Assembly: GCF_020685205.1 (NCBI RefSeq)
Contig: NZ_JAJERB010000002.1
Location: 558,001 to 622,000 of the forward strand
Direction: 5' to 3'
Length of the DNA: 64,000 nucleotides
Origin: Hymenobacter translucens
Lineage (GTDB): Bacteria; Bacteroidota; Bacteroidia; Cytophagales; Hymenobacteraceae
The notes below the pieces were generated by a model that saw only the letters and a program-made list of their open reading frames with translations, was not told where the DNA came from and did not search any database. Shown piece after piece: positions 1 through 18,485 of this stretch. Position numbers and translations under genes: made by a program. Numbering within the stretch: position 1 is the stretch's first letter; every line of letters starts with the position of its first letter.

Positions 1-2
1 AG

Positions 3-53
3 GAGCAGGCCCCGGTTTTCCGGATTCCGCTCACCCTGCAGCCCGCCGATTAA
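3..53 (+). CDS. C-terminal end of an upstream gene (partial)
   Basis: An open frame enters from the left edge and stops at TAA 51-53, giving a 16-residue tail that ends LTLQPAD. Codon use fits the high-GC neighbours. It could be the last gene before, or part of, the tubulin/actin/motor set that follows, but too little is present to assign a family. The only evidence is frame and position, so this may be chance. Confidence 0.3.
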   Translation, partial: EQAPVFRIPLTLQPAD

Positions 54-174: not shown

Positions 175-567
175 ATGAAAGGCTTCTTCCGCTTTCTCTA
201 CGAGCTGATTGGCTCGCCCCAGCCCCCCTCCGAAACGCCCGTGTACCGGGAGGTGATTTTCCCGAATGTGGGTTTGCTTACCCTGGGTTTGTCCCTGGCG
301 CTGGTGCTGATTTTCTACTACCTGATCAACCGCGCCATGGGCGTCGCCACGTTCAACAAGGTGCGGCACTGGGTGATTTTCCTGGTTATCAGCGCGGTGC
401 TGTCCTTTCTGATCGGTATCTGGCAGGCTAACTCCCAGGCCGTGGCTTCTCACTCCTACATCTACTGGATGTCGACCTGGAACGCCATCCTCGGCATGGT
501 CTGGTTTTTTCTGTTCTCCATCATTCTCAAGCGCGGCTCCACCAACGCCAGCACGACTCCTTTTTAG
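175..567 (+). CDS. Small three-TM membrane protein, first visible gene of the motor-like set
   Basis: A 130-residue protein with three hydrophobic segments at about residues 34-54, 68-86 and 105-122, a short basic N-terminus and a polar C-terminal tail. I recognise no family. It is co-directional with the tubulin-like gene that starts 145 bases downstream, and its position suggests a membrane component of the same set, which is inference from order only. The ATG at 175 follows directly on a non-coding stretch, and no better start is visible. It could instead be an unrelated inner-membrane protein. Confidence 0.7.
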   Translation: MKGFFRFLYELIGSPQPPSETPVYREVIFPNVGLLTLGLSLALVLIFYYLINRAMGVATFNKVRHWVIFLVISAVLSFLIGIWQANSQAVASHSYIYWMSTWNAILGMVWFFLFSIILKRGSTNASTTPF

Positions 568-570
568 GGG

Positions 571-712
571 CTCGGGGTCCTGGGTGCTTAGGGTCTTAGC
601 TGATGTTCTGATGACTGGCAAGAATCATTATTGTCAGCGACTAACGTCCAAGACCCCAAAACCCGGAAAAATCCAAGACCCCAGGTTCCCAAGATCTTAA
701 GAACCCAATTCC
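571..712 (+). repeat. Intergenic low-complexity inverted/direct repeats
   Basis: The spacer holds word-like repeats. CCAAGACCCC occurs at 648-657 and again at 673-682, and GGGGTCCTGGG/AGGGTCTTAG at 574-599 is their approximate complement. A long, imperfect hairpin is possible. It resembles in style, but not in sequence, the other intergenic inverted repeats in this window. Confidence 0.45.
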
Positions 713-2161
713 ATGGCTAAACTCTTTTTATTCGGCATTGGCGGCACGGGCTCCCGCGTGATTCGCTCCCTGACCATGCTGCTGGCTTCGGGCGTGAAGC
801 TCGCCAACTGCGACCGGGTGGTGCCCATCATCATCGACCCTGACGCCCACAACGGCGACATGAACCGCACAGTGGACATGCTGAAAAGCTACCAGCAGAT
901 CTACCAGCGCCTGGGCAAGCGGGAAGACGGCTTCTTCCAGACCGACATCAGCACCCTGAGCAGCATCTCGGCCGATACCAACGGGGGCGTGAAGGACACG
1001 TTCGTGTTCGATTTCGGTGGCATCAACCAAAGCTTCCGGCAGTACCTGAGCTACGACCAGCTTTCGGTCGACTCCAAGGGCCTCGTGGAGCTGCTCTTCA
1101 CCCAGGACAACCTGGAAAGCCCGCTGACCATCGGCTTCCGCGGCTCGCCCAACGTGGGCAGCATCGTGCTGAACAAAGTGGTGGAGTCGCCGGAAATCCG
1201 GTTTTTCGCCGACAACTTCCAGGCCGGGGACCGGGTGTTTTTCGTGTCGAGCATCTTCGGCGGCACCGGCGCGGCCGGCTTCCCGCTTTTGCTCAAAAAC
1301 CTCAAGGACCCGAACACCCGCCTCAGCAACGCCCGTTACCTGCGCGACGCCCTGACGGGGGCCGTGACGGTGATGCCCTACTTCGCGCTGCAGAGCGAGG
1401 ACAACTCGGTTATCGACTCGAACTCCTTTCTAACCAAGACCAAGGCCGCGCTCAGCTACTACGAGCACAACCTGCAGGGCCTTGACGCGCTGTACTACCT
1501 GGCCGACACGCCCGACACGCCCTACGAAAACCAGCCCGGCGGCACCGCTCAGCGCAACAAGGCCCACCTGATCGAGCTGCTGGCCGCGCTGAGCATCGTG
1601 GACTTCATGCAGTACTCCGAGTCGGAGCTGCGCAACGGCGGGCCCCACTTCCACGAGTACGGGCTGGGCGTGGACTCGCAGGAGCTGAACTTCAGCCATA
1701 TGCCCGACGAAAGCCGGGAGCTGATTGCCAAGCACCTCACCCAGCTGCTGTACTTCACCCGCTACCACAAGCAGCACCTGCCCACCGACAAGGCGCCCTA
1801 CCACGACAACCTGAACCTGGACCACGCCCTGCGCAACGAGCCCATCTTCAAGGAGCTCAACAACTTCCTGCACAGCCCCGAGTACGGCGTGGACGAGTGG
1901 CTCAAGGAGCTAAGCCAGAACCGCCGCTCCTTCCGCCCCTTCGACCTGACCACCGACGACTTCAACGCCATGATTGCGGGCAAGCCGGTGGAAAAGAAGT
2001 GGAACGACTTCTTCAACAAGGGCCTCAGCCAGAACTATTTTCTCAATCAGCTTAACGACGCCGCCAAGTCCATTCAGGAGCCCGACGCCTTCAAAAAGCT
2101 CGTCGCCCTGTTCGACAGCGTGACCGACAAGGCCTTTGAGGAAAAGGTGAAAGTGGTGTAG
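713..2161 (+). CDS. Tubulin/FtsZ-like putative GTPase
   Basis: A 482-residue soluble protein with no signal peptide or TM segment. The N-terminus after a hydrophobic strand reads GIGGTGSR (residues 8-15), like the first nucleotide loop of FtsZ/tubulin. A second glycine loop, FGGTGAAG (about 182-189), follows a hydrophobic strand ending VSS, as in the tubulin signature GGTGSG. The pattern matches the bacterial tubulin-like families distinct from FtsZ, best the one Pfam calls Tubulin_2. The C-terminal half is mainly helical by composition. The partners are the downstream actin/Hsp70-like protein and MotA/MotB-like pair, so a role as a cytoplasmic assembly or switch factor in a membrane machine is inferred. 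GTP binding is not shown. A Rossmann-like NTPase of another family is the main alternative. Confidence 0.6.
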   Translation: MAKLFLFGIGGTGSRVIRSLTMLLASGVKLANCDRVVPIIIDPDAHNGDMNRTVDMLKSYQQIYQRLGKREDGFFQTDISTLSSISADTNGGVKDTFVFDFGGINQSFRQYLSYDQLSVDSKGLVELLFTQDNLESPLTIGFRGSPNVGSIVLNKVVESPEIRFFADNFQAGDRVFFVSSIFGGTGAAGFPLLLKNLKDPNTRLSNARYLRDALTGAVTVMPYFALQSEDNSVIDSNSFLTKTKAALSYYEHNLQGLDALYYLADTPDTPYENQPGGTAQRNKAHLIELLAALSIVDFMQYSESELRNGGPHFHEYGLGVDSQELNFSHMPDESRELIAKHLTQLLYFTRYHKQHLPTDKAPYHDNLNLDHALRNEPIFKELNNFLHSPEYGVDEWLKELSQNRRSFRPFDLTTDDFNAMIAGKPVEKKWNDFFNKGLSQNYFLNQLNDAAKSIQEPDAFKKLVALFDSVTDKAFEEKVKVV

Positions 2162-2175
2162 GAAACCGTTAACCT

Positions 2176-2220
2176 AGAACGTCATGCTGAGCTTGTCGAA
2201 GCATCTCTACCGCTTCGTTG
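2176..2220 (+). repeat. 45-bp terminal inverted repeat, left copy of cassette 1
   Basis: This matches the complement of 2585-2629 at 42 of 45 positions, with core GTCATGCTGAGC then GAAGCATCTCTACCGCTTCG. The same sequence recurs at 9938-9980 and 10161-10203. It is a REP-like dispersed element, and with its partner it brackets the ORF at 2240-2623. Confidence 0.85.
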
Positions 2221-2239
2221 CAATCAAGCTTCAACCTCA

Positions 2240-2623
2240 ATGATGGATGCTAGCGAATACAAGCGTCGGAAGCAGCAAGACAATGTTCTCCACTTCTCCG
2301 CGCTCAATGCCACCCGTACGCTTCTCATAAAAGCTGAGCACTTCGATTTGGTGCGGCACATTGACGAAGCTATTGCAGCTGGTGAAATCGATAAGCCAAG
2401 TCAGCATCACAATCCCGGCGCATACACCAGCTTCTACCGCGTAGGTCTGGCTAGCAACAACATTGAGGTTATCATTGAGATGCTCATCGATCTAGAAGCC
2501 GGTGCAGTTGATAAGGATGGCCAAACAACTGCGCTGGCTTCGTTTTACGCGTCATTGCTGGATGAATGGCATGACTTGCTTCTTCAACGAATCGGTAGAG
2601 ATGCTTCGGCACGCTCAGCATGA
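2240..2623 (+). CDS. Hypothetical 127-residue protein inside an inverted-repeat cassette
   Basis: A soluble, mildly acidic protein of unknown family, with no signal peptide or TM segment and a helical composition. It starts 20 bases after one 45-bp repeat (ATG at 2240 or 2243), and its last 11-12 codons and stop (TGA 2621-2623) lie inside the inverted partner repeat, so its tail RIGRDASARSA is translated repeat. Base composition is visibly less GC-rich than the two flanking large genes. It interrupts the tubulin-like and actin-like genes and is probably a later insertion rather than part of the machine. The ORF is intact, but expression is unproven. Confidence 0.55.
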   Translation: MMDASEYKRRKQQDNVLHFSALNATRTLLIKAEHFDLVRHIDEAIAAGEIDKPSQHHNPGAYTSFYRVGLASNNIEVIIEMLIDLEAGAVDKDGQTTALASFYASLLDEWHDLLLQRIGRDASARSA

Positions 2624-2629
2624 CGTTCT
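2585..2629 (-). repeat. 45-bp terminal inverted repeat, right copy of cassette 1
   Basis: Inverted partner of 2176-2220 with three mismatches. It encodes the C-terminus and stop of the ORF ending at 2623. Confidence 0.85.
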
Positions 2630-2706
2630 TTTCCTGAAATCCTTTCCCTGCTCTCCCGCCGTCCTTTCCTTTTGCGGGTTAGATTAACAAAGACAAACTC
2701 CCGACA

Positions 2707-5700
2707 ATGCCCAAAGTCCTTCGTCTTCATAACAACGGCTCCCAGCAGGTGCAGGGCTGGCAGAAAACTGCCCCTATCACCAGCACCGAAATCAACACCG
2801 TCACCGACCCCACCGGTGGGCGGGCCAAGAACGTGGCAGTGAGCATCCCGACGCCGTTTGCGCGGATGCACCTGTTCGAAACGGCCTTCGACTTCCTGGC
2901 CCGGGAAGGGCAGCGCAACCCCGGCTCGGTGTACCACGAGCTGGTGTCGCACTTCTGGGATTTGTTTGAAATCCTCTACAACTACAACCTCTACACCCAG
3001 GCGGGCCGCAAAATCACGCTGCGCCGCTGGAATGCCGAGACAGAGCTGCGGAAGATGCGGTCCGACGAAGGCACCCGCCTGCTGGGCGAAACGCTGCAGC
3101 TGTTTTTGCAGGACGAGCGGTTCCGTGACTTCTCCGACATGTACCTCGTGTTCTACGAGTCGCCCGAGCTGCCCGGTGGGCCCCAGCTGCTGGGCGGCAC
3201 CTCCCCGCTGACGCTGCTGTTCACGGCTCCGGCCGTGAAAACGCTGGAATTGGAGCGCGCCCAGGCCAAGGGCCGTTACTTCGACAACCAAGTGGTGCTG
3301 CTCGAAGACCGTTCCCCGGCTTTCCGCGACTTCATGTACGAGCTATTCCTTGCGTATCCGCAGCTGCAGCGCCGCGAGTTTGCCGGCAGCGTATTTGCCG
3401 GCCTCGACCGCGCCCGTATCAACCAGATGCAGATGCAGGGTGAGCACACGGCTCAGCAGTTTGCCGCCAAGTATCCGGCCCTGAGTGACTTCCAGGGCAA
3501 CCTGGTCAGCGTAAAGCACGTGCCTCTGCCCGGCCGGGCCGACCAGTCGGCGGTGATGAGCTCCGACCTGTTCATTGCCCCGACGCGGAGCGAAAGCAAC
3601 GGCCGGCCCCGTCCACTGGTGCTGCGTCCCAACCTGACCATGCAGGGCGCCAACTACCTCAACGGCCAGCCCTGGGACGACCGCACCACGGTGCCCTACG
3701 CCGACGAGCTGACGCTAGAAAACCGCGTGCTGCCCGGCAAAGGCTTTAAATACCCTTACCTCACCGTAGGCGACTTCCTGGAAGATGCCCTGGTCGAGCT
3801 GCCGTATGAGCTGAACACGCAGCGTTTTCACACCGGAAAGGTAACGTTCCAGTACGGCGCTGATACGCAGGGCCGGGCCCGGTTTCCGTATCTGCTGCCC
3901 TTGCGGCAGGCCTTCTTCGAGTACTTCACCGAGCACGACCTCGCCGAGCTGGTCACCTTTACCATCGACCTGAACCACGTGCGGGTGCTGGTGCGGATTC
4001 CGGTGCAGGCCGGGCGCTTTATCACCTTTGAGCGCAGCTACTACCAGAACCCCCAGAACCCCAAGGACGCCCAGGGCCGCGAGATTCCGGAGAAGGGCCG
4101 CATCGTAAAGGCCAACATCGGCCTGGGCGTGTTTCCGTTCTACAAGATGCGCCAGCAGCCCGAGTACAACGACTTCTACAAAGTCATGCTCGTGGACGCC
4201 GACAACAGCCCCACCATGCTGCAGCGCCGCTACGACCTGAACTTTTTCGTGGGCGGGGAGCGGCTCACCGACCAGGGCGCAGCCCGCAAGGCCACCAAGT
4301 TTGAGCGGACGCAGAAAAGCGTAGCCACGGCCGGCAGCACCTACTACGAAATCACCGGTACCCACTTCGACCTGGCCGAGCTGACCTGCCCGCCGGCTTT
4401 CCACGGCGCGCCCCCGGCCCGGGGCCTGATCGTGCCGCGCTGGCGGGAGCTGGACCGGGGTACCCGGCGCTTCACCTTCGCCGTCGACTTTGGCACCAGC
4501 AACACCCACGTGGCCTACGCCAACGGTCCGGCCGCTCACCCCGTTCCCTTCACCATTGGCGAGGCCGATCTGCAGGTTGAGCTGCTCAACGCGCCCCTGC
4601 CCGACACCGGCTACTCGGCGTTTCAGCGCTACATGCGCGGCCCGGGTCAGCTGATCGACGTGCCCCTGATTCAGAACCGGGAGTTTATTCCGAGCATCAT
4701 CGGGGAACAGCAGTCGGTGTATGAGTTTCCGATCCGGACGGCGGTGTGCGAGACCAACTCCTACGCCAACGAGCCGAGCAAAGTGCTCAGCAACATCAAC
4801 ATTGGCTTCAGCATTAACACCGAAACCGGGCAGCCGCCCCAGAACCGCTTCGTGACCAACCTGAAGTGGAGCGCCGAGCTGGACCCCCAGGGCGTAAACC
4901 GCATTGCGGCCTTCTTCAAGGAGATTCTGCTGTTGATGAAGCACAAGGCGGCCATGCAGGGCGGGGTGCTCGAAGACACCCGCGTGGTGTGGTTTGCTCC
5001 GCTGAGCTTCGACATGTTCCTGCGCAACCAGTTTCAGCAGGTCTGGGACGAAGCCTTCCAGCAGGTGTTCCGGGCCCGCCGACCCACTCAGTGCATTTCG
5101 GAGTCGGTGGCCCCGTACTACTACCTCACGGCTACCAACCAGGTGGTGCCCAACCGCGACGAGAACGTCATCAACATTGACATCGGCGGCGGCACCACCG
5201 ACCTGCTGATCTTCGCCGACCAGAAGCCTTCGTTCAGCTCCTCGTTCCGCTTTGCCGGCGACGACCTGTGGGGCGACGGCTACGCCCGCGTGCAGGGCGC
5301 GCCCAAGCAGAACGGCCTGCTCCGCCTCGGCGTGCAGTATGTGGAAAGCCTGCCCGACTCCGAGGAAAACCAGGAGTACAAAGGCTACCTGCGCGCGGCC
5401 CTACAGAACCCCGACTTCGGCTCGGCTGATGTAACCAGCCTGCTGTTCACCTACAACGAGGCACTACGCTTTACGCAAAGCCTGGGCCTGGGCAAGGGGC
5501 GGCAGCTACGGGTGCTGTTCTACCTGCACTACACCGCCATTGTGTACCACGTGGCCCAGCTCGTGCAGCACCTCGGCCTGAAGCCCCCGCGCTACCTGTG
5601 CTTCTCGGGCAAGGGCAGCCTGTACCTGCGTCTGCTCAGCGGCGGCGCCAGCATGGCCGCCATTGAGAAGATCAGCAAAGCCGTATTCAAGGCCGCTTCG

Positions 5701-6177
5701 GGGCAGGAGGCGCCGCACAACTTCCGCGTGATTCTGGCCGATAACCCCAAGGAAGCCACCACCAACGGCGGCGTGCTGTTCGAGGAAAGCGCCACCAGCG
5801 CCGCCGACTTCGACCAGATCCGGACAGTAAAGCTCAACGGCGCTATGGAAGGGCAGGACATTGACGCAGCCCGCCTGAAAATGCCCCAGGTGGACGCCGA
5901 CCTCAAACAGAGCGTCATCGACAACACCCGCCGCTTCCTCGACATCGTGCTCGACAGCGACGACGTGGCCCCGCTGATGCGCGAAGTCGGCGTCGACATC
6001 GACCGGACCCGGGTCAAGGAGTTTCTGCTCCGCGAAATCGAGGACAGCCTCAGCCTGGGTCTGCACCAGATTGGCCGCAACCTGAGTCAGGGCGAAACGC
6101 TGCCCGAAACCCTGTTCTTCTACCCGCTCAAGCAGGCCCTCTATAACCTGAGCCGGGAGTTGATTTCCAACGGGTAG
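2707..6177 (+). CDS. Large protein with C-terminal actin/Hsp70-like ATPase domain
   Basis: 1156 residues. The first 585 or so match no family I recognise. An actin/Hsp70 fold starts at about 589: the phosphate-1 loop is AVDFGTSNTHVAY (592-604) and the phosphate-2 loop INIDIGGGTTDLL (822-834), both textbook for ASKHA ATPases. A probable adenosine-binding segment (FSGKGSLYLR) lies near 965-975. There is no TM or signal peptide, so it is cytoplasmic. The length and N-terminal extension recall SrfB-type proteins rather than DnaK, with no substrate-binding domain. It sits between the tubulin-like and MotA-like genes, so ATP-driven assembly or regulation of the same machine is inferred. The C-terminal 200 residues are helical. 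The start at 2707 is the first ATG after the repeat cassette. The ATPase fold is clear; the function is not. Confidence 0.75.
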   Translation: MPKVLRLHNNGSQQVQGWQKTAPITSTEINTVTDPTGGRAKNVAVSIPTPFARMHLFETAFDFLAREGQRNPGSVYHELVSHFWDLFEILYNYNLYTQAGRKITLRRWNAETELRKMRSDEGTRLLGETLQLFLQDERFRDFSDMYLVFYESPELPGGPQLLGGTSPLTLLFTAPAVKTLELERAQAKGRYFDNQVVLLEDRSPAFRDFMYELFLAYPQLQRREFAGSVFAGLDRARINQMQMQGEHTAQQFAAKYPALSDFQGNLVSVKHVPLPGRADQSAVMSSDLFIAPTRSESNGRPRPLVLRPNLTMQGANYLNGQPWDDRTTVPYADELTLENRVLPGKGFKYPYLTVGDFLEDALVELPYELNTQRFHTGKVTFQYGADTQGRARFPYLLPLRQAFFEYFTEHDLAELVTFTIDLNHVRVLVRIPVQAGRFITFERSYYQNPQNPKDAQGREIPEKGRIVKANIGLGVFPFYKMRQQPEYNDFYKVMLVDADNSPTMLQRRYDLNFFVGGERLTDQGAARKATKFERTQKSVATAGSTYYEITGTHFDLAELTCPPAFHGAPPARGLIVPRWRELDRGTRRFTFAVDFGTSNTHVAYANGPAAHPVPFTIGEADLQVELLNAPLPDTGYSAFQRYMRGPGQLIDVPLIQNREFIPSIIGEQQSVYEFPIRTAVCETNSYANEPSKVLSNINIGFSINTETGQPPQNRFVTNLKWSAELDPQGVNRIAAFFKEILLLMKHKAAMQGGVLEDTRVVWFAPLSFDMFLRNQFQQVWDEAFQQVFRARRPTQCISESVAPYYYLTATNQVVPNRDENVINIDIGGGTTDLLIFADQKPSFSSSFRFAGDDLWGDGYARVQGAPKQNGLLRLGVQYVESLPDSEENQEYKGYLRAALQNPDFGSADVTSLLFTYNEALRFTQSLGLGKGRQLRVLFYLHYTAIVYHVAQLVQHLGLKPPRYLCFSGKGSLYLRLLSGGASMAAIEKISKAVFKAASGQEAPHNFRVILADNPKEATTNGGVLFEESATSAADFDQIRTVKLNGAMEGQDIDAARLKMPQVDADLKQSVIDNTRRFLDIVLDSDDVAPLMREVGVDIDRTRVKEFLLREIEDSLSLGLHQIGRNLSQGETLPETLFFYPLKQALYNLSRELISNG

Positions 6178-6231
6178 AGAGAAAATGCGGGGTGAACTGA
6201 TTTGAATCGTTTCACCCCGCATTTTCTCTCT
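6176..6231 (+). terminator. Strong hairpin after the actin-like gene
   Basis: A perfect 21-bp stem (6176-6196 with 6211-6231) and a 14-base loop, overlapping the last base of the stop codon. The lower part of the right arm is TTTTCTCTCT. It probably terminates or attenuates transcription before the lipoprotein gene. The stem also rules out an upstream TTG at 6202 as that gene's start. Confidence 0.7.
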
Positions 6232-6240
6232 ATTACCGGT

Positions 6241-6681
6241 ATGATGCTAATGAGGATAATCCCGCGCGTTTTACTTCTGTTGACAGTTTTGCCCTTAGGC
6301 TCATGCTTCTGGGGGTCGGAATGGGACGAGAAAGAAATAGTTGGTAACTATTGGGCAACGACGATTAGTGGAGGAAGAAAGTATTACCTGTACTATGACA
6401 ATGAGGGTGAACTTAGTACTCCTTTGATTCAAGCTCAAGTTACTGAGACAGGCCACAATGACCGAGTGATAATTGTTAAATCATGCACTGAGTACTACAT
6501 ACTTCCCATTAGGAGTATCCAGTACAGACAACCACTTAAAGGGGAGTACCACAACGTCCATGAAGAGATTCGGAAGAAAGTTCTGGGCCCTTTCAACAGA
6601 GCGACATTTTACCAAACCCTGACCGCTATGGGCGAAGACTCTCTGATGAGCTTCGATCAAGAAATAGCCGACTGCCAATAG
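6241..6681 (+). CDS. Small putative lipoprotein in the motor-like set
   Basis: 146 residues from ATG 6241 (ATGs at 6244 and 6253 are alternatives). There is a signal peptide with a lipobox LGSC near residues 19-22, so it should be anchored in the envelope. The mature part has alternating polar and aromatic residues suggesting a small beta-rich domain (WATTISGGRKYYLYY). I recognise no family. The gene is clearly richer in A+T than its neighbours and follows a strong hairpin, so it may be an insertion into the set. It could also be a true subunit that contacts the periplasmic side of the MotB-like protein. It ends 12 bases before the next frame opens. Confidence 0.6.
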   Translation: MMLMRIIPRVLLLLTVLPLGSCFWGSEWDEKEIVGNYWATTISGGRKYYLYYDNEGELSTPLIQAQVTETGHNDRVIIVKSCTEYYILPIRSIQYRQPLKGEYHNVHEEIRKKVLGPFNRATFYQTLTAMGEDSLMSFDQEIADCQ

Positions 6682-6711
6682 CCGAAGTATTGCATGCTGA
6701 AACTCCTGCCC

Positions 6712-8223
6712 ATGAATCGTTTTTCCCTTTCCGGTGCCTTGCTGTTTGCCGGCCTGCTGCTTTCCGTCACTTTCGCCTCGGCCCAGACCACGCCCGGCCA
6801 GCCCACGCTCGATGAGCAAAAGGCCCAGATCTGGTGTGCTACGGTTCGGTTTATCTACGACGAAGCGGGCAAGTCTGACCTGAAAAACTCCGTCCGCTGC
6901 GGAGGCTCGCTCAAGGAATTCGAAAGCAGCATCAAAGCGGATAGTCAGAAGGTGTATAGCCTGCTGTATGCGCCGCTGGAAGCCCGGGGAACGATGTACA
7001 GCGGACTGGGCTCGGATAAGTCCAGGCTGCAGAAGCTGGCGACGGAAATTATCAACAAGCTGAAATCCTCGCCCTCCCGCCGCAAGGACCCGGCCCGGAT
7101 GCAGGGCGTGCAGGACCTTGACGCCCAGCTGAAAGGCTACGTTGAAAACGGCACTCCACCCACCGACGTTGGCGCCAGCCTGGCCGCGGCGCAGACCCCG
7201 CAGCTGGATACGACGGCAACCGATGAGGAAATGGCCGCCACTGAAACAGCCGGCACCGACCCCGTTGACAATTCCTATGCGGCAACCAGCCGCAGCGCAG
7301 GAAGTGGTGAAAGCATGATGAGCAAGCTGTTCGCGCCCATTGCCCTGATTCTGTCCCTGCTGAGCCTGTTTCTGTATGTGCTGCTGCGCCGTAGCATCAG
7401 CGCCCTCGGCAGCCGTGCCGACCGGCACCGCAGTGAGCTGGAATCGGTGAAAGCTACGGCCGGAGGCTTTGGCGGTGGGGGAGGAGGAGTTGCTGCCGGC
7501 CTGACGCCAGACGTGCAGCGCGAGATTGAGCGAATCGTGCAGCAGCGCGTGGCCGCGGAGGTAGCCCGCCTGCAGTCGGGCAACGCCGGACAAAGCCAGC
7601 ACCAGCCCCGGAAAGAAGGACAGTCGAACAAGCAGCAGCGTCAGCAGCAGAATGCCCCGCGTCCGGCCCCGGCCGCTGCCCCGCCAGCGGCGGCTCCTGC
7701 AGCGGCAGAGGCTCCCACCAGCTACGCTCCCCCCGCCCCGATGCGGGAAACCGAGCCCGCCCCTGCCGCTATGCCCCTGGGCTCCCCCGCCACCGAAAAC
7801 CGCGACGAGTTCGATAGCCTGATTCCGCCCGTCCAGCTGCCGGCTACGGATTGGTCGGCCGCAACGGCTCCCGTGCAGCCAGCCGCCGCGCCGGCTCCGC
7901 CCGCCAATCAGCGGTTCTATGTGAAAGTGCCCGTGAACGGGGGATTCAGCGAATACGACCTGCAGGACCAGCCCCAGCACGATAGCATCTACGAAATCAC
8001 CCTCGACCCCCAGCGCCCCGGCCGGGCGTCGTTCCGAATCACGTCGAACACCGCTGTCCACGCCTACGCCATTCAGAGCGCCCAGTACTCGCTGCGTGAT
8101 GCCTGCCAGTACCAGCAGCCCACCGGCCCCGTTTCGCGCATCGTCACCGACAAGGACGGCGTGCTGAACAAGGCCAACGGCGCCTGGCAGGTCGAGCAGA
8201 AAGCCGCCATTCACTTCGAGTAG
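6712..8223 (+). CDS. Single-pass envelope protein with Pro/Ala-rich linker
   Basis: 503 residues from ATG 6712, chosen because the N-terminus then forms a normal signal peptide ending ASAQ; an in-frame ATG at 6694 is possible. Predicted order: periplasmic domain with two Cys (about residues 30-195), one TM helix at about 206-226 followed by RR, a Gly-run and coiled-coil segment to about 300, a low-complexity Pro/Ala/Gln linker to about 400, then a compact C-terminal domain (401-503). The topology puts the C-terminal domain in the cytoplasm. The gene lies directly upstream of the MotA-like gene. A link between a periplasmic sensor and the cytoplasmic NTPases is an inference. I recognise no family. 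Confidence 0.65.
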   Translation: MNRFSLSGALLFAGLLLSVTFASAQTTPGQPTLDEQKAQIWCATVRFIYDEAGKSDLKNSVRCGGSLKEFESSIKADSQKVYSLLYAPLEARGTMYSGLGSDKSRLQKLATEIINKLKSSPSRRKDPARMQGVQDLDAQLKGYVENGTPPTDVGASLAAAQTPQLDTTATDEEMAATETAGTDPVDNSYAATSRSAGSGESMMSKLFAPIALILSLLSLFLYVLLRRSISALGSRADRHRSELESVKATAGGFGGGGGGVAAGLTPDVQREIERIVQQRVAAEVARLQSGNAGQSQHQPRKEGQSNKQQRQQQNAPRPAPAAAPPAAAPAAAEAPTSYAPPAPMRETEPAPAAMPLGSPATENRDEFDSLIPPVQLPATDWSAATAPVQPAAAPAPPANQRFYVKVPVNGGFSEYDLQDQPQHDSIYEITLDPQRPGRASFRITSNTAVHAYAIQSAQYSLRDACQYQQPTGPVSRIVTDKDGVLNKANGAWQVEQKAAIHFE

Positions 8224-8267
8224 CCTTTGTGGCTATTAGCTGATGGCTTGTAGCGGTTAGCTTAATC

Positions 8268-8356
8268 CTTTGTCTGCGAAGGACCTTCTCACGTTAGAGC
8301 GACATTGAAGACAATGGCTCGTTTTAACCTGATAAGGTCCTTCCTTTGTCAGGATA
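8268..8356. repeat. REP-like palindromic element
   Basis: Inverted words GAAGGACCTT (8278-8287) and AAGGTCCTTC (8334-8343) lie in a spacer between co-directional genes. The same GAAGGACCTT word forms the arms of the element at 60687-60787, so this is a dispersed family distinct from the GTCATGCTGAGC family. Confidence 0.6.
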
Positions 8357-8445
8357 ACAGAACATCGAGAACCCATCCGTGAGAACTCCGGACCAGTCAC
8401 TTCCTGAAAAACGGGAGCTGGTTTTCTAGCAGTAGCTTTACCCCG

Positions 8446-9906
8446 ATGCTTGAAATTATACTCGAAATAGTCGTTGTCCTGATTGTGGTGGGGCTGCAGA
8501 TCCGTGTGTTTCTGCAAACCCGTAGCAACGCGCAGCGGCTGGGTCAGCTGTACCCGGCCAAAAATGCGTTGCGGGTAGAGCGGCGCATGGTGCTGCCCGA
8601 CGGTACCGATCTGCCCGAATATGCCGCCAACGCCCCGGACGGCTCGTTCGTGGTCGATATCATCAAGGCGGAAAAAGTATCCGAAGACTTCCGGGAAATT
8701 CTGGTCGACACCAACGACTACCTGCGGCACAACAAAGGCGCCGCGTCCGACTTCGGCATTCTGAAAGACATTTCGGAGCGACAGTCCCAGGTGCTTGACA
8801 CGGCCGTGCAGGCCAACGTGGCGACGCCGCTGTACCTGGGCTTGCTGGGTACGTTTATGGGCGTGATTCTGGGCCTGGTGGGCATCGCCCGCAACGGGGT
8901 GTCGGATGAAGATGCGCTGACGCCCTTCCTGACCGGCGTGCTCATTGCCATGACCGGCTCCTTCGTGGGTTTACTGCTCACGATGCTCGGCAACAGCGAA
9001 GTCCGCAAAGCCCGGCAGCGGCTCGAGCAGCTCAAAAACGCCTACTACACCTTCCTGCAGGCCCGCCTGCTGCCGGTGCTGCACAACGACATGGCCAACA
9101 GCCTGTCGACGCTGAAGGGCGTGCTCGATGCCTTCAACCAGGATTTCATCGGCAAGGTCACCGTATTCGAGCCCATCATCGGCACGCTCACCGAGAACGT
9201 GAAGGTGCAGCGCGACTTCCTGACCCGGCTCAACGAAATCGGGTTCGACCAGATGGCCAGCGCCAACGTGGCCGTGTTTGAGAAGGTCAGTCAGTCGGCC
9301 GAGCTGTTTGCGCAGTTTATGGGCTACCAGCAGCGGCTCAACCAGATGCTGGAAGATGGCACCGCCACCGCCCGGGCCGTGAGCAGCATTCTGGACCGGC
9401 TGGTCGGCTTCGAGCGGGGCATCAACAACGTAGGCCAGTACATCGGGCAGCACGACAATGTTATCCAGCACCAGCTCGACTTTTTCCAGCGCCACCAGCA
9501 GGAGATGAGCAACCTCGCGGCCCGCACCGAGCAGTACTTCGACCAGGCCGCCGGCCGCCTCACCGACCTGATGCAGCAGCGCCTGAGCTACCACGAGCGC
9601 GACGCCCAGCAGGCCTACGAGAAGTGGGGGCAGTATTTCCAGAAGCTCAACGAGGACAACGTGTTTGAGCGCATCACCCGCTACCTGGAGCCGTTCCAGA
9701 ACCTGAATGCCCAGCAGGAGGCCCTGGGCCGCGACGTGACGGCCACCCAGCGGGAGCTTTTGCGCAAAGTCGAGCTGGACTCCCAGATTCAGGCCAAGCT
9801 GCTCGCCGAGCTGTCGAACCTGAACACGGTGCTGGTGAAAGCCACGTCGAAAAACCGGTTTCAGCGGTTTATGGACAAGCTGTTTGGCGGCGTACAGCCC
9901 CAGTAG
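8446..9906 (+). CDS. MotA/TolQ/ExbB-like channel protein with long cytoplasmic tail
   Basis: 486 residues. TM1 lies at about 4-25, a cytoplasmic domain at about 30-125, TM2 at 128-150 (LGLLGTFMGVILGL) and TM3 at 161-182 (GVLIAMTGSFVGLLLTML). The TM2-TM3 pair carries the small-residue and threonine pattern of the MotA/TolQ/ExbB family. Three TM helices with the first at the extreme N-terminus is the TolQ/ExbB/ZorA topology, not the four-helix MotA one. Residues 183-486 form a long Gln/Leu-rich helical tail, as in ZorA of the Zorya defence system. With the MotB-like gene at 10278 it should form a proton- or sodium-driven rotary stator; this follows from family knowledge and is not tested here. 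The start at 8446 gives an immediate TM helix. Confidence 0.85.
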   Translation: MLEIILEIVVVLIVVGLQIRVFLQTRSNAQRLGQLYPAKNALRVERRMVLPDGTDLPEYAANAPDGSFVVDIIKAEKVSEDFREILVDTNDYLRHNKGAASDFGILKDISERQSQVLDTAVQANVATPLYLGLLGTFMGVILGLVGIARNGVSDEDALTPFLTGVLIAMTGSFVGLLLTMLGNSEVRKARQRLEQLKNAYYTFLQARLLPVLHNDMANSLSTLKGVLDAFNQDFIGKVTVFEPIIGTLTENVKVQRDFLTRLNEIGFDQMASANVAVFEKVSQSAELFAQFMGYQQRLNQMLEDGTATARAVSSILDRLVGFERGINNVGQYIGQHDNVIQHQLDFFQRHQQEMSNLAARTEQYFDQAAGRLTDLMQQRLSYHERDAQQAYEKWGQYFQKLNEDNVFERITRYLEPFQNLNAQQEALGRDVTATQRELLRKVELDSQIQAKLLAELSNLNTVLVKATSKNRFQRFMDKLFGGVQPQ

Positions 9907-9914
9907 CCAGTAGC

Positions 9915-9932
9915 GCGAACTTTGTAGTTCGC
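9915..9932. repeat. Short palindrome after the MotA-like gene
   Basis: GCGAAC, six bases, GTTCGC forms a small hairpin immediately before cassette 2. There is no U-tract, so it is not a convincing terminator. Confidence 0.5.
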
Positions 9933-9937
9933 CTACC

Positions 9938-9980
9938 AGAACGTCATGCTGAGCTTGTCGAAGCATCTCTACCGCTTCGT
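9938..9980 (+). repeat. 43-bp terminal inverted repeat, left copy of cassette 2
   Basis: Identical over 43 bases to the left repeat of cassette 1 (2176-2218), and inverted relative to 10161-10203. Confidence 0.85.
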
Positions 9981-10000
9981 CACAATGGAACTGCTTTCCA

Positions 10001-10198
10001 ATGTTTGAGAATCAAAGCCATATCATTGCCAGGATACTAAATTCTGAAGTTGTGCTTCAGCACTTTGGCTATTGGCCGGATTTTGATGATGCCGAAGTGA
10101 ATAAGGTCATTTTCGAAGCGCATTATTGCCGAAGAAGCATTTGTAATGAGCCTCACCTCAACGAAGCGGTAGAGATGCTTCGACTTTGCTCAGCATGA
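10001..10198 (+). CDS. Imm50-like fragment inside an inverted-repeat cassette
   Basis: 65 residues. The segment ILNSEVVLQHFGYWPDF followed by DDAEV resembles the N-terminal region of Imm50-type immunity proteins (established family, recognised by eye). Those proteins are roughly twice as long, so this is probably a truncated remnant. The last 12 codons and the stop (TGA 10196-10198) are read from the right-hand repeat, giving a tail EAVEMLRLCSA that is unrelated to the family. No toxin gene is adjacent. It lies between the MotA-like and MotB-like genes and is richer in A+T than either. A chance ORF is possible but less likely given the match. Confidence 0.45.
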   Translation: MFENQSHIIARILNSEVVLQHFGYWPDFDDAEVNKVIFEAHYCRRSICNEPHLNEAVEMLRLCSA

Positions 10199-10203
10199 CG
10201 TTC
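10161..10203 (-). repeat. 43-bp terminal inverted repeat, right copy of cassette 2
   Basis: Inverted partner of 9938-9980, differing by a short substitution/indel in the middle (GACTTTGCTC against GACAAGCTC). It supplies the end of the 65-codon ORF. Confidence 0.85.
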
Positions 10204-10224
10204 CATTTACAACAACATCAGCAC

Positions 10225-10254
10225 GCGAGATTCCTCGACTTCGCTCGGAATGAC
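10225..10254. repeat. Second REP-like word next to cassette 2
   Basis: GAGATTCCTCGACTTCGCTCGGAATGAC has the layout of a REP half-element (TCCTCGACTTCGCTCGGA is nearly palindromic). Only one copy is visible in this window. Confidence 0.4.
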
Positions 10255-10277
10255 CGGCCGATAGTATAAGAGTTATT

Positions 10278-10961
10278 ATGAACGACACCACCACGAACAA
10301 CCGCTCTTCCAACGACTTCTTCTGGCCCAGCTACGTGGACCTGATGACGTCCTTGTTCGTGGTGATGCTGGTCTTGTTCGTGTATAGCTTCAAGCTGTTC
10401 AAGGACCGGGAAAACGACCTGAAAAAGGCCAACGGGGAGCTCAAGGCCAAGGCCGAGGAGCTGGAGCAGATTACCAAGATCCGCCGCTCCCTGCAGCGCC
10501 TCGAAGGCCGGTACTTTAAGTACGACCCCGGCCTGGAGCGGCACGAGCTGCTGGTGCCGGTACAGTTCAAGGCCGGGCGCGACGAAATCCAGGATGCCTA
10601 TAAGCCCGCCCTGCTCCAGGCCGGGCAGACGCTCCGCTCAGTGCTCAAAACTATTCGGACCGAGCAGCCCGTGCGCTACCTCGTGATTGTGGAAGGTATG
10701 GCCGCCCGCTACGCCGGCAACGACCCGCGCAACCGCGCCGAAGAGCAGCTCACCTACCAGCTCAGCTACCGCCGGGCCCTGAATCTTCTCAACTTCTGGA
10801 AGCAGAACGGCCTTGATTTCAGCCAGGACTCCGGCATCGAGCTGATTATCGGGGGCAGCGGCTTTTTCGGCACCGGGCGCTACCGTGGGGCCCGCGAAGG
10901 CCAGAACAAGCGGTTCCTGATTCAGGTTATCCCCAAAATCGGGCGGATTACCAGTCGGTAA
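10278..10961 (+). CDS. MotB/ZorB-like protein with OmpA-like C-terminal domain
   Basis: 227 residues. A short cytoplasmic N-terminus is followed by one TM helix (about 18-40) with Asp21 at its start (PSYVDLMTSLF), matching the ion-carrying Asp of MotB/TolR/ExbD/ZorB. A coiled-coil stalk spans about 42-70, then an OmpA-like domain to the C-terminus. The OmpA helix motif (YQLSYRRALNLL) is visible, though the usual NxxLSxxRA Asn is replaced. In known relatives this domain binds peptidoglycan and anchors the stator. It pairs with the MotA-like gene upstream, separated only by repeat cassette 2. A MotB of a flagellum is unlikely, as no flagellar genes are nearby and this group glides or is non-motile. 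Confidence 0.85.
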   Translation: MNDTTTNNRSSNDFFWPSYVDLMTSLFVVMLVLFVYSFKLFKDRENDLKKANGELKAKAEELEQITKIRRSLQRLEGRYFKYDPGLERHELLVPVQFKAGRDEIQDAYKPALLQAGQTLRSVLKTIRTEQPVRYLVIVEGMAARYAGNDPRNRAEEQLTYQLSYRRALNLLNFWKQNGLDFSQDSGIELIIGGSGFFGTGRYRGAREGQNKRFLIQVIPKIGRITSR

Positions 10962-10964
10962 GTC

Positions 10965-11034
10965 GTTGTCAGTTGTTCGTTGTTAGTTGTCCGGTTATTC
11001 TGCTACTGACAACTGACAACGAACAACCGACAAC
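10965..11034. repeat. Long intergenic hairpin of repeated words
   Basis: 27-base arms (10965-10991 and 11008-11034) pair with two mismatches around a 16-base loop. Each arm is made of tandem GTTGTC/AGTTGTT-like words. It closes the motor-like set and lies before the prolyl oligopeptidase gene. There is no T-run after the stem. A near-identical word set recurs at 61489-61565. Confidence 0.8.
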
Positions 11035-11059
11035 TAAAAACTATCAACACCTTTGCGCT

Positions 11060-13294
11060 ATGAACAAAACCTACCTGTCTTTGCTGACCGTGGCCTCGGT
11101 GGCTGCTGTGGCCGCCTGCCGCTCCAGCCAACCGCCCAAAAGCCTGGCCGGCAACGCCTCCGCCACCGAAACGCCCATCATCGAGCAGAACGCCCCGGCC
11201 CGTACTGCTCCCGAAACGCCCCGCCTCACCGTGGACTACCCGAAAACCCGTAAATCCGACCACACCGACGACTACCACGGCACCAAGGTAGCCGACCCCT
11301 ACCGGTGGCTCGAAGACCTCGACTCGCCCGAAACCAAAGCCTGGGTGGAAGCCCAGAACAAGGTTACCTTCGGCTATCTGGAGCAGATTCCGTTTCGCAA
11401 CCGTATCAAGGAGCGCCTCACCAAGATCTGGAACTACGAGCGGTTCAGTATCCCGCAGGAAGAAGGCGGGCGCCTGTACTATTCCCGCAACGACGGTTTG
11501 CAGAACCAGGGGGTGATGTACACCCAGCAAAGCGGGCAGGAAGGTCAGCCCGACCTGCTGCTGGACCCCAACAAGCTTTCCGCCGACGGCACCACCGCCC
11601 TGGCCGGCACCTATTTCTCCCACGACCACCGCTACATGGCGTTTGCTACGTCCGGCGGCGGTTCCGACTGGCAGAAGCTAAAGGTGATGGACCTGAAAAC
11701 CCGGCAGCCGCTCAAAGACGAGCTCCAGTGGGTGAAGGTATCGGGGGCGGCCTGGTACAAGGACGGCTTCTTCTACAGCCGCTACGATGCGCCCAAGGCC
11801 GGCGAAAACCAGCTTTCGGGCAAAAACGAGTTCCACAAGGTCTACTACCACAAGCTCGGTACGCCGCAATCGGCCGACAAGCTCACGTACGAGGACAAGA
11901 CCATGCCCCTGGGCTTCCGGACCGTGGGCACCACCGAAGATGAGCGTTTCCTGCTGCTTTACCTGACCGATGGCAAGGCGGATGGCAACCGCATCATGGC
12001 CCGTGACCTGACCGACCCCAAGCAGGCCGGCAAGTTCACCACGCTGATTTCCAGCTACGAGTACAACAACTCGGTGGTCGGCAACGTGGGTGGGGAGCTG
12101 CTCGTGCTCACCAACTACAAGGCCCCGCGCTACCGCGTCGTCCGCATCGACCCGAAAAAGCCCGCCGAGACCAACTGGAAAGTGGTGCTGCCCGAAACCG
12201 AGAACAAGCTCGACGACGTGAATCACGTGGGCGGCAAGCTGATCGTGAGCTACCTCAAGGATGCCAGCAGCCAGGTAAAGGTGTATTCCGAGAAGGGGGT
12301 ACTGGAAAATGAGGTGGAGCTGCCCGCCATCGGCACCGCCACCGGCTTTGGCGGGCACCGCGACGCCAAGGCCGTGTACTACGCCTTCACCTCGTTTACC
12401 TACCCCACCACCATCTACCGCTACGACCTGGCCACCAAGCAAAGCACGGTGTTCCGGGCTCCGAAGGTAGACGTGGACCCGGCCGACTACGTGACCACCC
12501 AGGTGTTCTACGCCAGCAAGGACGGCACCAAGGTTCCGATGTTCATCACCCACAAGAAAGGCGTGAAGCTCGACGGGCAGAACCCAACGTACCTGTACGC
12601 CTACGGGGGCTTTAACATCTCCCTGACGCCCGGCTTCAGCGTAGCGCGGATGCTGTGGCTGGAAAACGGCGGCATCCTGGCCGTGGCCAACCTGCGCGGG
12701 GGCGGGGAATACGGCGAGGCCTGGCACCAGGCCGGCATGACGCCCAACAAGCAGAACGTGTTCGACGACTTTATTGCCGCTGCCGAGTATCTGACGGTGC
12801 AGAACTACACCAACCCCCAGCGCCTGGCTATTGCCGGTGGCTCCAACGGTGGCCTGCTAGTCGGTGCCATCATGACCCAGCGCCCCGACGTGGCCCACGT
12901 AGCGTTGCCCGCCGTGGGCGTGATGGACATGCTGCGCTACCAGAAGTTTACCATCGGCTGGAACTGGGCCCCGGAGTACGGCACGTCCGACAATTACGCC
13001 CAGTTTCAGAACCTGGTGAAGTTTTCGCCCCTGCACAACCTGAAGGCCGGCACCACCTACCCGGCCACCATGATTACCACCGCCGACCACGACGACCGGG
13101 TGGTGCCCGCGCACTCGTTTAAGTTTGCGGCCACGCTGCAGGAAAAGAACGGCGGGCCTAACCCCCAACTGATTCGCGTGGATGTGAATGCCGGCCACGG
13201 GGCGGGCAAAAGCACGGCGCTGCAGATCCAGGAGTGGGCCGACATCTGGTCGTTCTGCTACCAGAACATGGGCGTGAGCCCGTACGGAAAGTAG
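11060..13294 (+). CDS. Prolyl oligopeptidase family lipoprotein (S9A)
   Basis: 744 residues from ATG 11060. An earlier in-frame start would run through the intergenic hairpin, and this start gives a signal peptide with lipobox AAC near residue 18-20. Peptidase S9 N-terminal beta-propeller spans about 60-490 (opening with DYHGTKVADPYRWLEDL), and the alpha/beta-hydrolase catalytic domain follows. Ser595 lies in GGSNGG, the acid is Asp678 or Asp679 in DHDDRVVPAHS, and the base is His713 in AGHGAGK. It cleaves after proline in short peptides, and a periplasmic or surface location is expected from the lipobox. It appears monocistronic. Confidence 0.93.
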   Translation: MNKTYLSLLTVASVAAVAACRSSQPPKSLAGNASATETPIIEQNAPARTAPETPRLTVDYPKTRKSDHTDDYHGTKVADPYRWLEDLDSPETKAWVEAQNKVTFGYLEQIPFRNRIKERLTKIWNYERFSIPQEEGGRLYYSRNDGLQNQGVMYTQQSGQEGQPDLLLDPNKLSADGTTALAGTYFSHDHRYMAFATSGGGSDWQKLKVMDLKTRQPLKDELQWVKVSGAAWYKDGFFYSRYDAPKAGENQLSGKNEFHKVYYHKLGTPQSADKLTYEDKTMPLGFRTVGTTEDERFLLLYLTDGKADGNRIMARDLTDPKQAGKFTTLISSYEYNNSVVGNVGGELLVLTNYKAPRYRVVRIDPKKPAETNWKVVLPETENKLDDVNHVGGKLIVSYLKDASSQVKVYSEKGVLENEVELPAIGTATGFGGHRDAKAVYYAFTSFTYPTTIYRYDLATKQSTVFRAPKVDVDPADYVTTQVFYASKDGTKVPMFITHKKGVKLDGQNPTYLYAYGGFNISLTPGFSVARMLWLENGGILAVANLRGGGEYGEAWHQAGMTPNKQNVFDDFIAAAEYLTVQNYTNPQRLAIAGGSNGGLLVGAIMTQRPDVAHVALPAVGVMDMLRYQKFTIGWNWAPEYGTSDNYAQFQNLVKFSPLHNLKAGTTYPATMITTADHDDRVVPAHSFKFAATLQEKNGGPNPQLIRVDVNAGHGAGKSTALQIQEWADIWSFCYQNMGVSPYGK

Positions 13295-16742: not shown

Positions 16743-17105
16743 CTAGCTGGCTTTGGCCGCTTTCTTGGCTTCCTTGGCGCGGCGCTTCTCCTCGCGGGCC
16801 AGCTTCTGCGCTTCCTTTTCCTTGCGCTTGGCTTCCTTGGCCTGGGCCTGCTGCTCTTTCAGCTGGCGCTTCTGCTCCTTAAGCTGCTGCTGCTGCTCTT
16901 TCAGCTGCGCCTTGCTGTCCTTTACCGCGCTGGCGCTGGCATCGGACTGCTGCTTCTGGGCATTCAGCGCGGCCTTTGATTCGGCAGCGCGCTGCTGGAG
17001 CATCTGCACCCGGGCCTGGGCAGTATCGGTTGGAGTGGTCGACTGGGCCTGCGCCGTGCTGATGAACAGGGTGGCAACGGCGAGTATGGCGAGAATCTTT
17101 TTCAT
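16743..17105 (-). CDS. Secreted Lys/Glu/Gln-rich coiled-coil protein
   Basis: 120 residues from the ATG at 17105 (complement). This start gives a standard signal peptide ending AQAQ; a longer frame reads through non-coding sequence. The mature protein is almost entirely heptad-like, with QLKEQ repeats then KEAKRKEK-type basic/acidic repeats, predicting one long helix in the periplasm. The low-complexity composition prevents assignment. Such proteins are common in this group and of unknown function. Confidence 0.7.
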   Translation of the reverse strand: MKKILAILAVATLFISTAQAQSTTPTDTAQARVQMLQQRAAESKAALNAQKQQSDASASAVKDSKAQLKEQQQQLKEQKRQLKEQQAQAKEAKRKEKEAQKLAREEKRRAKEAKKAAKAS

Positions 17106-17175
17106 GACGAACGGAGAGGTTATGGTACGGTTGGGCCTGTAACGTAACCGGTGCGCCATAGTTGGTGTGCCCGCT

Positions 17176-18447
17176 CTATTCCTCAAGGTAGTCCAGGTCC
17201 TTGCCGTAGCTTTCCGGCAGGGTAGTTACGGCCCAGAAAGCAATGAGCAGCGACACCACCCCGATGATGGCCGCGCTGCCGATAATGCCCAGCGCGTGCC
17301 CGCCTACGTCCAGGCCCGAAAGTCCCTTGAACAGCGGCACGAGCAGCACTACCGAGCCCCGGGCAAAGTTCGGGGCCGTGGTGGCGACGGTGGCCCGCAG
17401 GTTGGTGCCGAACTGCTCGGCCGCCACGGTCACGAACAGCGCCCAGAACCCTACGGTGATGCCGAGCACAAAGCAAACGGCGTAGAACGCCGTAGGTGAG
17501 GCTCCCCGGATGGCAAACAGATACACCCCGCACAGCAGCCCGCACAGGATCAGGAACAGCTGCAGGGCCCGGTTGCGGCTGCGCAGCAGCTGACTGAGCG
17601 TGCCGCTGGCAAAGTCGCCGAACACCAGCCCGAAGTAGCACCAGAACACGCCCAGCCCCGCCGAAACCGGGCCGGTGATACCTAGGGCCCGGCCAAACTC
17701 AGGAGCCAGCGTTATCAGGATGCCGACCACAAACCAGAGCGGCACGCCGATGAGCAGGCACTTCAGGTAGCGGGTCAGGCGGGGGGCGTTAGTAAACAGG
17801 CTGAGGAAGTTGCCACGCGCCGCACCGGTCGATTTCGTGTGCTCAAACATGCCCGACTCGTACACGCCCACCCGCAGCGCCAGCAGGGCCAGTCCGAGGC
17901 CGCCGCCCACGAAATAGGCATTGCGCCAGCCCAGGGCTTCGCCCACCCAGTAGGCCAGCATGGCGCCCGATACGCCCACGGTGGCCACAATCATGGTACC
18001 GTAGCCCCGCTTTTCCTTGGGCAGTGTTTCCGAAACCAGCGTGATGCCCGCGCCCAGCTCCCCGGCCAGGCCTATGCCCGCAATCAGCCGCAGCCAGGCG
18101 TACTGGTCGATGGTCTGCACCAGGCCGTTGGCAATGTTAGCCAGGGAATACAGCAGGATGGAGCCGAACAGCACCGACAGCCGCCCCCGCTTGTCGCCCA
18201 GAATACCCCACAGTACGCCGCCAAGCAGCATTCCGCCCATCTGCATGTTGATTAGGTACAAACCCTGGTTGGTCACGGCGTCGGGGTCGGTAATGCCCAG
18301 GGACTTCAGACTTTCGACCCGCACGATGCTGAACAGAATCAGGTCGTAGATATCGACGAAGTACCCAAGCGAGGCCACGATGACGATGGCACTGAACAGC
18401 GAGGCGGTTTTGGGAGCCGGTGAGGCGGGACCAGTGGTGATGGCCAT
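17176..18447 (-). CDS. Major facilitator superfamily transporter
   Basis: 423 residues with 12 predicted TM helices. The loop 2-3 motif is GDKRGR (residues about 84-89), and a sugar/metabolite-porter-like GIGLAGELGAG lies in TM4. Closest in style to the MHS/sialic-acid and aromatic acid permease branch, so an organic acid or sugar substrate is possible, unproven. The start gives a 16-residue cytoplasmic tail before TM1. The downstream gene in transcription order is the coiled-coil protein, and the upstream CDF gene starts 39 bases before it on the same strand, so the two transporters may be co-transcribed. Confidence 0.88.
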   Translation of the reverse strand: MAITTGPASPAPKTASLFSAIVIVASLGYFVDIYDLILFSIVRVESLKSLGITDPDAVTNQGLYLINMQMGGMLLGGVLWGILGDKRGRLSVLFGSILLYSLANIANGLVQTIDQYAWLRLIAGIGLAGELGAGITLVSETLPKEKRGYGTMIVATVGVSGAMLAYWVGEALGWRNAYFVGGGLGLALLALRVGVYESGMFEHTKSTGAARGNFLSLFTNAPRLTRYLKCLLIGVPLWFVVGILITLAPEFGRALGITGPVSAGLGVFWCYFGLVFGDFASGTLSQLLRSRNRALQLFLILCGLLCGVYLFAIRGASPTAFYAVCFVLGITVGFWALFVTVAAEQFGTNLRATVATTAPNFARGSVVLLVPLFKGLSGLDVGGHALGIIGSAAIIGVVSLLIAFWAVTTLPESYGKDLDYLEE

Positions 18448-18485
18448 AGGAGAGTAGGAGCGAAGCAGCGGATGGAAGCCGAATA

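Follow-up and report, generated by a model that had tools for sequence, protein, structure and literature searches.

What do the co-directional genes at the start of a 64,000-nucleotide stretch of the Hymenobacter translucens genome encode, and do their products work together? The stretch (contig NZ_JAJERB010000002.1, positions 558,001 to 622,000, our G000:C21:558001-622000) is referred to here as the window. An earlier note had read the genes, from the letters of the DNA, as a candidate undescribed envelope machine with tubulin-like, actin/Hsp70-like and MotA/MotB-like parts. We propose that the products of seven conserved genes form a force machine of the inner membrane. A membrane-held pair of predicted tubulin and actin folds would cooperate there with a wall-anchored, ion-driven motor. 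We put the probability of this reading at roughly 40%. The conserved gene order, the replacement of the block in two genomes, the predicted folds, the motor-family homology and the signal and transmembrane (TM) segments were computed directly; the rest we infer.

A conserved block of seven genes

All seven genes lie on the plus strand. The first encodes a vWA-like lipoprotein of ~458 residues and was overlooked by the earlier note, as its open reading frame (ORF) starts 1.3 kb upstream of the window and reaches into it with its 3' end only (1..53; L004:16677-18053; G000:C21:556677-558053). It is followed by TM3, a small conserved protein with three TM segments (175..567), Tub, an FtsZl1/Tubulin_2-type protein of 482 residues with a predicted tubulin fold (713..2161), Act, a protein of 1156 residues with a predicted actin/Hsp70-fold ATPase-type domain (2707..6177), the single-pass protein TM1 (6712..8223), the MotA/ExbB/ZorA-like channel MotA (8446..9906) and the MotB/ZorB-like stator MotB (10278..10961). 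The ORFs that had been reported before are all present where they were placed.

A scan of species genomes with an Act profile returned 383 relatives, and the best 77 of these 383 loci were kept, with the more distant ones outside. The order vWA, TM3, Tub, Act, TM1, MotA, MotB is complete in 73 of the 77, one of which has Tub in a split form. The remaining four loci end at a contig edge, and the motor pair is present in all 74 loci whose contig extends beyond its position. The loci belong to Hymenobacter, Solirubrum, Adhaeribacter, Pontibacter, Rufibacter and Sabulibacter. Tub occurs in all 37 members of the genus Hymenobacter (36 relatives and H. translucens itself), where it is single-copy throughout, and in 3 of the 22 genomes from elsewhere in the order. 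Among 395 genomes of the phylum, Tub was found in 14 and Act in 11, or in 10, all of them among the 14, once the match in genome G435 had been dropped (an ORF of only 295 residues, by eye of the Ppx/GppA type). A refined profile adds Act beside Tub in G241 and G340, which brings the pair to 12 of the 14 Tub genomes, with G445 and G271 lacking it; the context was left out for G223 and stops at a contig end in G148. The Tub-Act core is also encoded in Prevotella sp. oral taxon 299 and on two cyanobacterial plasmids, where the distribution outside Bacteroidota is taken from plasmid records and protein names only, with no chromosomal context.

Chance gene order is rejected by the order conserved across loci and across the phylum. 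The idea of one system, tested here by neighbourhood conservation, is thus strengthened: the adjacency is not confined to this lineage, the order in relatives is not random and is kept across families, and the tubulin-actin core recurs across two phyla.

The block is flanked on its 5' side by genes for an NTP-transferase, LemA and two TPM-domain proteins, and on its 3' side by a prolyl oligopeptidase gene (10973..13294, plus strand; PF02897/PF00326), which marks the chromosomal site and lies outside the machine. The 5' neighbours of the window recur in 46 of the 77 loci (LemA and TPM in 46, the NTP-transferase in 45), joined in 43 cases by the peptidase on the 3' side; a single locus has the downstream neighbours only, and 30 have neither side. 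The operon shares neighbours of the window in 47 of 77 loci, in 43 of them on both sides, and in these it has one fixed site among housekeeping-type genes. We call the site with these neighbours type A.

Within the genus, Tub is either 81-100% or only 36-54% identical to that of the window (pieces of split genes counted). Two genomes, G009 and G023, have a divergent operon in inverted orientation between the NTP-transferase and peptidase genes. Next to it is a single type-A-like gene, a full-length TM1; no further type-A genes were seen at their type-A site, and each genome has one Tub. Identities to the operons of G020, G021 and G034 are 67-70% for vWA, 79-82% for TM3, 90-93% for Tub, 88-90% for Act, 68-73% for MotA, 68-79% for MotB and 49-53% for TM1, compared to type A 22-26% for TM1 and 33-49% for the other six proteins. 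In the FtsZ tree, G009 and G023 fall inside the type-A clade together with G002 (support 100/99), whereas in the Tub tree they group with G020, G021 and G034. Since the FtsZ of both genomes sits in the type-A clade and the products of the seven operon genes are closer to those of G020, G021 and G034 than to type A, the operon arrived as a block and took over: in G009 and G023 the resident operon was replaced as a whole. The direction of change is given by the FtsZ tree for these two genomes only.

The versions other than type A are not one group, as G012, G014 and G029 form a clade apart, next to type A in the midpoint-rooted Tub tree. They are found in 18 genomes (17 in the genus survey and G129), and the peptidase site was viewed in 13, all but G005, G020, G028, G034 and G036. 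Two of the 13 are G009 and G023; each of the other 11 carries a lone TM1 relative beside the peptidase gene. In 7 of these, the stretch fetched also includes the NTP-transferase gene, sometimes with several kb between. These lone genes may reflect either the loss of six genes or a later assembly of the operon. TM1 of the window consists of a signal peptide, a periplasmic domain, one TM segment, a Pro/Ala/Gln-rich linker and a C-terminal domain that is predicted to be cytoplasmic. The lone proteins (L215-L225, 270-413 residues) keep the periplasmic domain and the TM segment and stop before the C-terminal domain, which suggests that this domain may be the part that docks to the machine. Intact lone TM1-like genes are retained at sites that lack the remainder of the type-A operon, and the periplasmic domain may have a function of its own.

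Two further ORFs on the plus strand within the block were rejected as machine parts. The ORF of 127 codons between Tub and Act (2240..2623) has profile matches in 2 of the 77 loci and is probably accessory or not a gene. The small lipoprotein (6232..6681), which the earlier note counted among the components, is found in 6 of the 77 loci and falls outside the conserved set. Intergenic gaps in the block are ~100-550 bp, and scans for terminators and promoters gave no excess above shuffled sequence.

Predicted folds and motor homology

Tub is predicted to adopt the tubulin/FtsZ nucleotide-binding fold with G-rich T1 and T4 loops. Its model has a helical C-terminus; in the FtsZl1 set of 2010, most members have a long coiled coil and a helical C-terminal domain. 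With PF13809, Tub of the window scores 15.2 bits and the homologue L037 28.3 bits, the curated cut-off being 27 bits. The L037 locus has a lone FtsZl1-type gene ~8 kb from one that by eye resembles a contractile-tail sheath gene (L037:7089-8708 and 16990-18516). Tub is not an FtsZ by TIGR00065, whose cut-off it does not reach; the matches in the H. translucens genome are on contig C2, with a weak one on C1, and do not include Tub of the operon on C21. All 20 genomes searched encode an ordinary FtsZ at another place (in 19 above the model cut-off, in G005 in two pieces), so that the operon is to be seen as an added apparatus and not as the divisome.

For Act, a two-lobed fold of the actin/Hsp70 superfamily with phosphate-1, phosphate-2 and adenosine motifs is predicted, and D594, D825, G827-829 and D832 are invariant. 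The fold evidence covers residues 586-1036 only (VIA list), which follow an N-terminal part of ~580 residues. An identity with SrfB (PF07520) was rejected, at 11.5 bits and E 0.072 compared with a curated cut-off of 27.1 bits.

The first gene is accepted as vWA-like only. In hhalign against 24 PF13519 proteins, its product matches with probability 82 and E 1.1e-5, while five control profiles reach at most 0.8, and its cyanobacterial homologues carry the motifs DGSGS and TDL. Pfam vWA models match none of 18 members, and a PDB profile search of the protein gave no vWA match. Hydropathy indicates a signal segment only. With this gene upstream, Tub has the vWA-type neighbour expected of an FtsZl1 gene.

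MotA has three TM segments and a C-terminal tail of ~300 residues. It matches PF01618 with 23.6 bits in a six-frame search (cut-off 22.9) and 21.3 bits in a second Pfam scan, and ZorA2 with E 5e-5. MotB has one TM segment with Asp21, conserved in 12 of 12 sequences (A4 set), and an OmpA-like periplasmic domain, and thus combines the Zorya-type stator aspartate with a peptidoglycan-type domain. It matches ZorB1 with E 5.7e-13, and its profile aligns to the ZorB structure 8VVN with E 2.7e-14 over positions 5-218 of 222. The curated NCBIfam cut-offs for ZorA and ZorB are not reached (ZorA2, 15.4 of 700 bits; ZorB1, 24.3 of 400 bits). The family names first given to these proteins, tubulin-like, actin/Hsp70-like and MotA/MotB-like, were right.

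A proposed force machine and its rivals

In the proposed machine, the FtsZ-like Tub would polymerise with GTP, and Act, which is FtsA/MreB/Hsp70-like, would bind Tub and ATP and act as an assembly factor. TM3 and TM1 would tether both, TM1 with a ZipA-like layout of membrane helix, Pro-rich linker and C-terminal domain. MotA and MotB would sit in the membrane as MotA5:MotB2, with MotB on peptidoglycan and ions carried by Asp21, and the MotA tail would contact the Tub/Act assembly. The vWA-like lipoprotein may be a periplasmic or outer-membrane sensor or anchor. Assembly driven by GTP and ATP would position the motor and gate it; the envelope would then be pushed or pulled by the flow of ions. 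The outcome could be local envelope remodelling apart from ordinary division, by analogy with TolQRA-Pal at the division septum.

A bolder claim, which we regard as doubtful, is that this would be the first prokaryotic machine in which a wall-clamped, proton/ion-driven MotAB-type rotary motor acts directly on tubulin-actin polymers. It would be a second, motorised FtsZ-FtsA-like apparatus, with an ancient tubulin-actin-vWA core common to Bacteroidota and Cyanobacteria. If motor and filament do act on each other, bacteria would have a new principle for generating force. MotB Asp21 and the nucleotide motifs of Tub and Act are testable, and the host genus Hymenobacter has been isolated.

The motor is linked to the core beyond the Hymenobacteraceae as well. 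In G415, from another family of the class, vWA, TM3, Tub and Act are followed by a gene for a TM protein of 271 residues, MotA and MotB, with gaps of -11 to 8 bp. In Salisaeta longa (G365), MotB (ZorB3, E 1.8e-27) precedes vWA, and a MotA-like gene for 542 residues follows Act; its product scores 22.3 bits with PF01618, just below the cut-off, and matches ZorA with E 1e-8, mostly over the tail. Linkage is less clear in G445 and G271. G445 has an operon remnant (L163:6925-12067) with Tub in two pieces, Act missing and MotA and MotB short. G271 encodes a Tub-like protein of 1615 residues together with vWA-like, ZorA-like and MotB-like genes and no actin-like gene (L166:548-10381); there, the ZorA-like matches extend over the coiled tail only, and the MotB-like gene is recognised by a TM motif only, with no PADLOC match.

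Several findings weigh against the proposal. PDB profile matches of MotA are weak (TolQ, E 0.017; ZorA, E 0.033), and the profile-level match between Tub and FtsZ is faint (hhalign E 0.03). MotAB was not seen adjoining the core in G305, G427, G074, G241, G340, G056, Prevotella and the two cyanobacterial plasmids. In the motor's place after the core, G305, G427 and G074 have a gene for 433-471 residues (related by eye), and G241 and G340 have other genes, which in G241 include TerD-domain genes. No MotB was found at E <= 1e-3 anywhere in G427, G305, G148 and G074, so the core can exist without the motor. In G040, a MotB-like and a lipoprotein-like gene at 1.71 Mb (L162:7985-9224) are ~1.65 Mb from vWA-TM3-Tub at 3.36 Mb (L035:10674-14494), with no MotA or Act beside either; Act was not sought genome-wide. 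Finally, the Tub gene is broken by frameshift or stop in G003, G005 and H. glacialis (L051, L039, L127), where the flanking genes are complete by profile; the breaks may be due to error, decay or recoding. The motor, first suggested as a fixed part of the system, has to be recast as an optional module, as several lineages were not seen to have it beside the core.

The main rival is a Zorya-like defence system, which we consider unlikely. A ZorAB-type motor would sense phage at the wall, and tubulin and actin would replace the nuclease or helicase effector, for example by caging or immobilising phage DNA or by closing the envelope. MotB is indeed nearest to ZorB, MotA has a ZorA-like long tail, in two genomes a divergent version displaced the resident at a single site, something that defence alleles can do, and DO-GTPase operons with tubulin or HSP70 have been proposed as conflict systems (PMC7159879). 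However, the presence of Tub in every genus member and the mostly fixed site among housekeeping-type genes speak against defence. Eight window proteins gave no match at E <= 1 to the effectors ZorC/D, ZorE and ZorF/G (the vWA-like protein was outside that scan), and Tub has no match in 50,697 phage records.

A stress or signalling role of the Ter/vWA type comes next and is again unlikely. Tub, Act and vWA would then form a nucleotide-switched membrane complex, with the motor as one of several output modules. This would fit the cores without motor in Prevotella and on the cyanobacterial plasmids and the 433-471-residue gene that replaces the motor in G427, G305 and G074. It would also fit the TerD-domain gene near Tub-Act in G241 (PF02342, E 4e-51; L164:2172-4063). 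However, no TerD match was found among the window operon proteins, and the motor is constant in the loci that reach past it and is present in two further deep lineages. By eye, further TerD-like ORFs were seen near a Tub-Act pair, and one TerD-like ORF (L165:7877-8455) has no Pfam match. In other Bacteroidota, the core is in this way connected with stress genes of the Ter type.

A role in surface motility, adhesion or secretion is improbable. MotAB would then drive a machine of the GldLM or AglRQS kind, with the tubulin/actin track serving as its scaffold. The motor family does power gliding and type 9 secretion (PMC11890865), and vWA proteins beside TolQ-like motors have been proposed as force transducers (PMC12204202). 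However, Pfam gave no match above cut-off to an adhesin, secretin or outer-membrane channel for any of the seven conserved proteins, and several lineages have the core without the motor. That core and motor are two neighbouring units with a common promoter region that do not work together is very improbable. The gaps in the window, the motorless cores and the solitary MotB of G040 speak for it; the linkage in Hymenobacteraceae, G415 and Salisaeta (less clearly in G445 and G271) and the move of both as one block in G009 and G023 speak against it.

Comparison with known systems

The FtsZ-FtsA-ZipA divisome with TolQRA-Pal has adjacent tubulin-type and actin-type genes, a single-pass protein with a Pro-rich linker, an ion motor and a lipoprotein. 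Unlike there, all parts of the present block are distant relatives at best, and ordinary FtsZ is encoded elsewhere. With Zorya (PMC11890865), the block shares a channel of three TM segments with a long cytoplasmic tail and a stator with a conserved Asp and a peptidoglycan-type domain. It differs in staying below the curated ZorA and ZorB cut-offs, in having no match to ZorC/D/E-type effectors and two cytoskeletal-fold proteins instead, and in its genus-wide presence at a mostly fixed site.

DO-GTPase/GAP1 systems, proposed conflict systems (Kaur et al. 2020, PMC7159879), also have tubulin or HSP70 proteins with vWA and membrane proteins. As presented there, they are defined by DO-GTPase and GAP1, and tubulin and HSP70 belong to separate themes; Pfam gave no match to P-loop GTPase families in the operon, and no dedicated DO-GTPase/GAP1 model was run. 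The vWA force transducers proposed in a 2025 paper (PMC12204202) are likewise encoded beside a TolQ/MotA-type motor. Their membrane tether is described as SHLS or transpore helices, whereas the lipoprotein has only its signal segment.

The closest precedent is the FtsZl1-vWA operons with OmpA-family proteins, for which membrane remodelling was proposed (Makarova & Koonin 2010, PMC2875224). As here, the gene of an FtsZl1-type tubulin has genes for a vWA protein and membrane proteins as neighbours, in some genomes also for OmpA-family proteins, and the tubulin coexists with ordinary FtsZ. The tubulin/vWA part of the block belongs to these systems, and to this extent the word undescribed in the earlier note has to be withdrawn. 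The main text of that paper does not contain the terms MotA, MotB, TolQ or Hsp70. In the passages considered no actin-type partner is named, and the OmpA proteins are called porin-like, whereas the OmpA-like protein here is a MotB/ZorB stator beside MotA. In a full-text search of the open-licence literature, none among the matches listed joins FtsZl1/tubulin-like, actin/Hsp70-like and MotA/ZorA-type genes. Since 2010, the FtsZl1 operons have stood as a cytoskeletal system without an assigned function. A recurrent partner of theirs is now identified as actin/Hsp70-type, and in several Bacteroidota an OmpA-like neighbour of the core is the stator of a MotAB/ZorAB-type motor.

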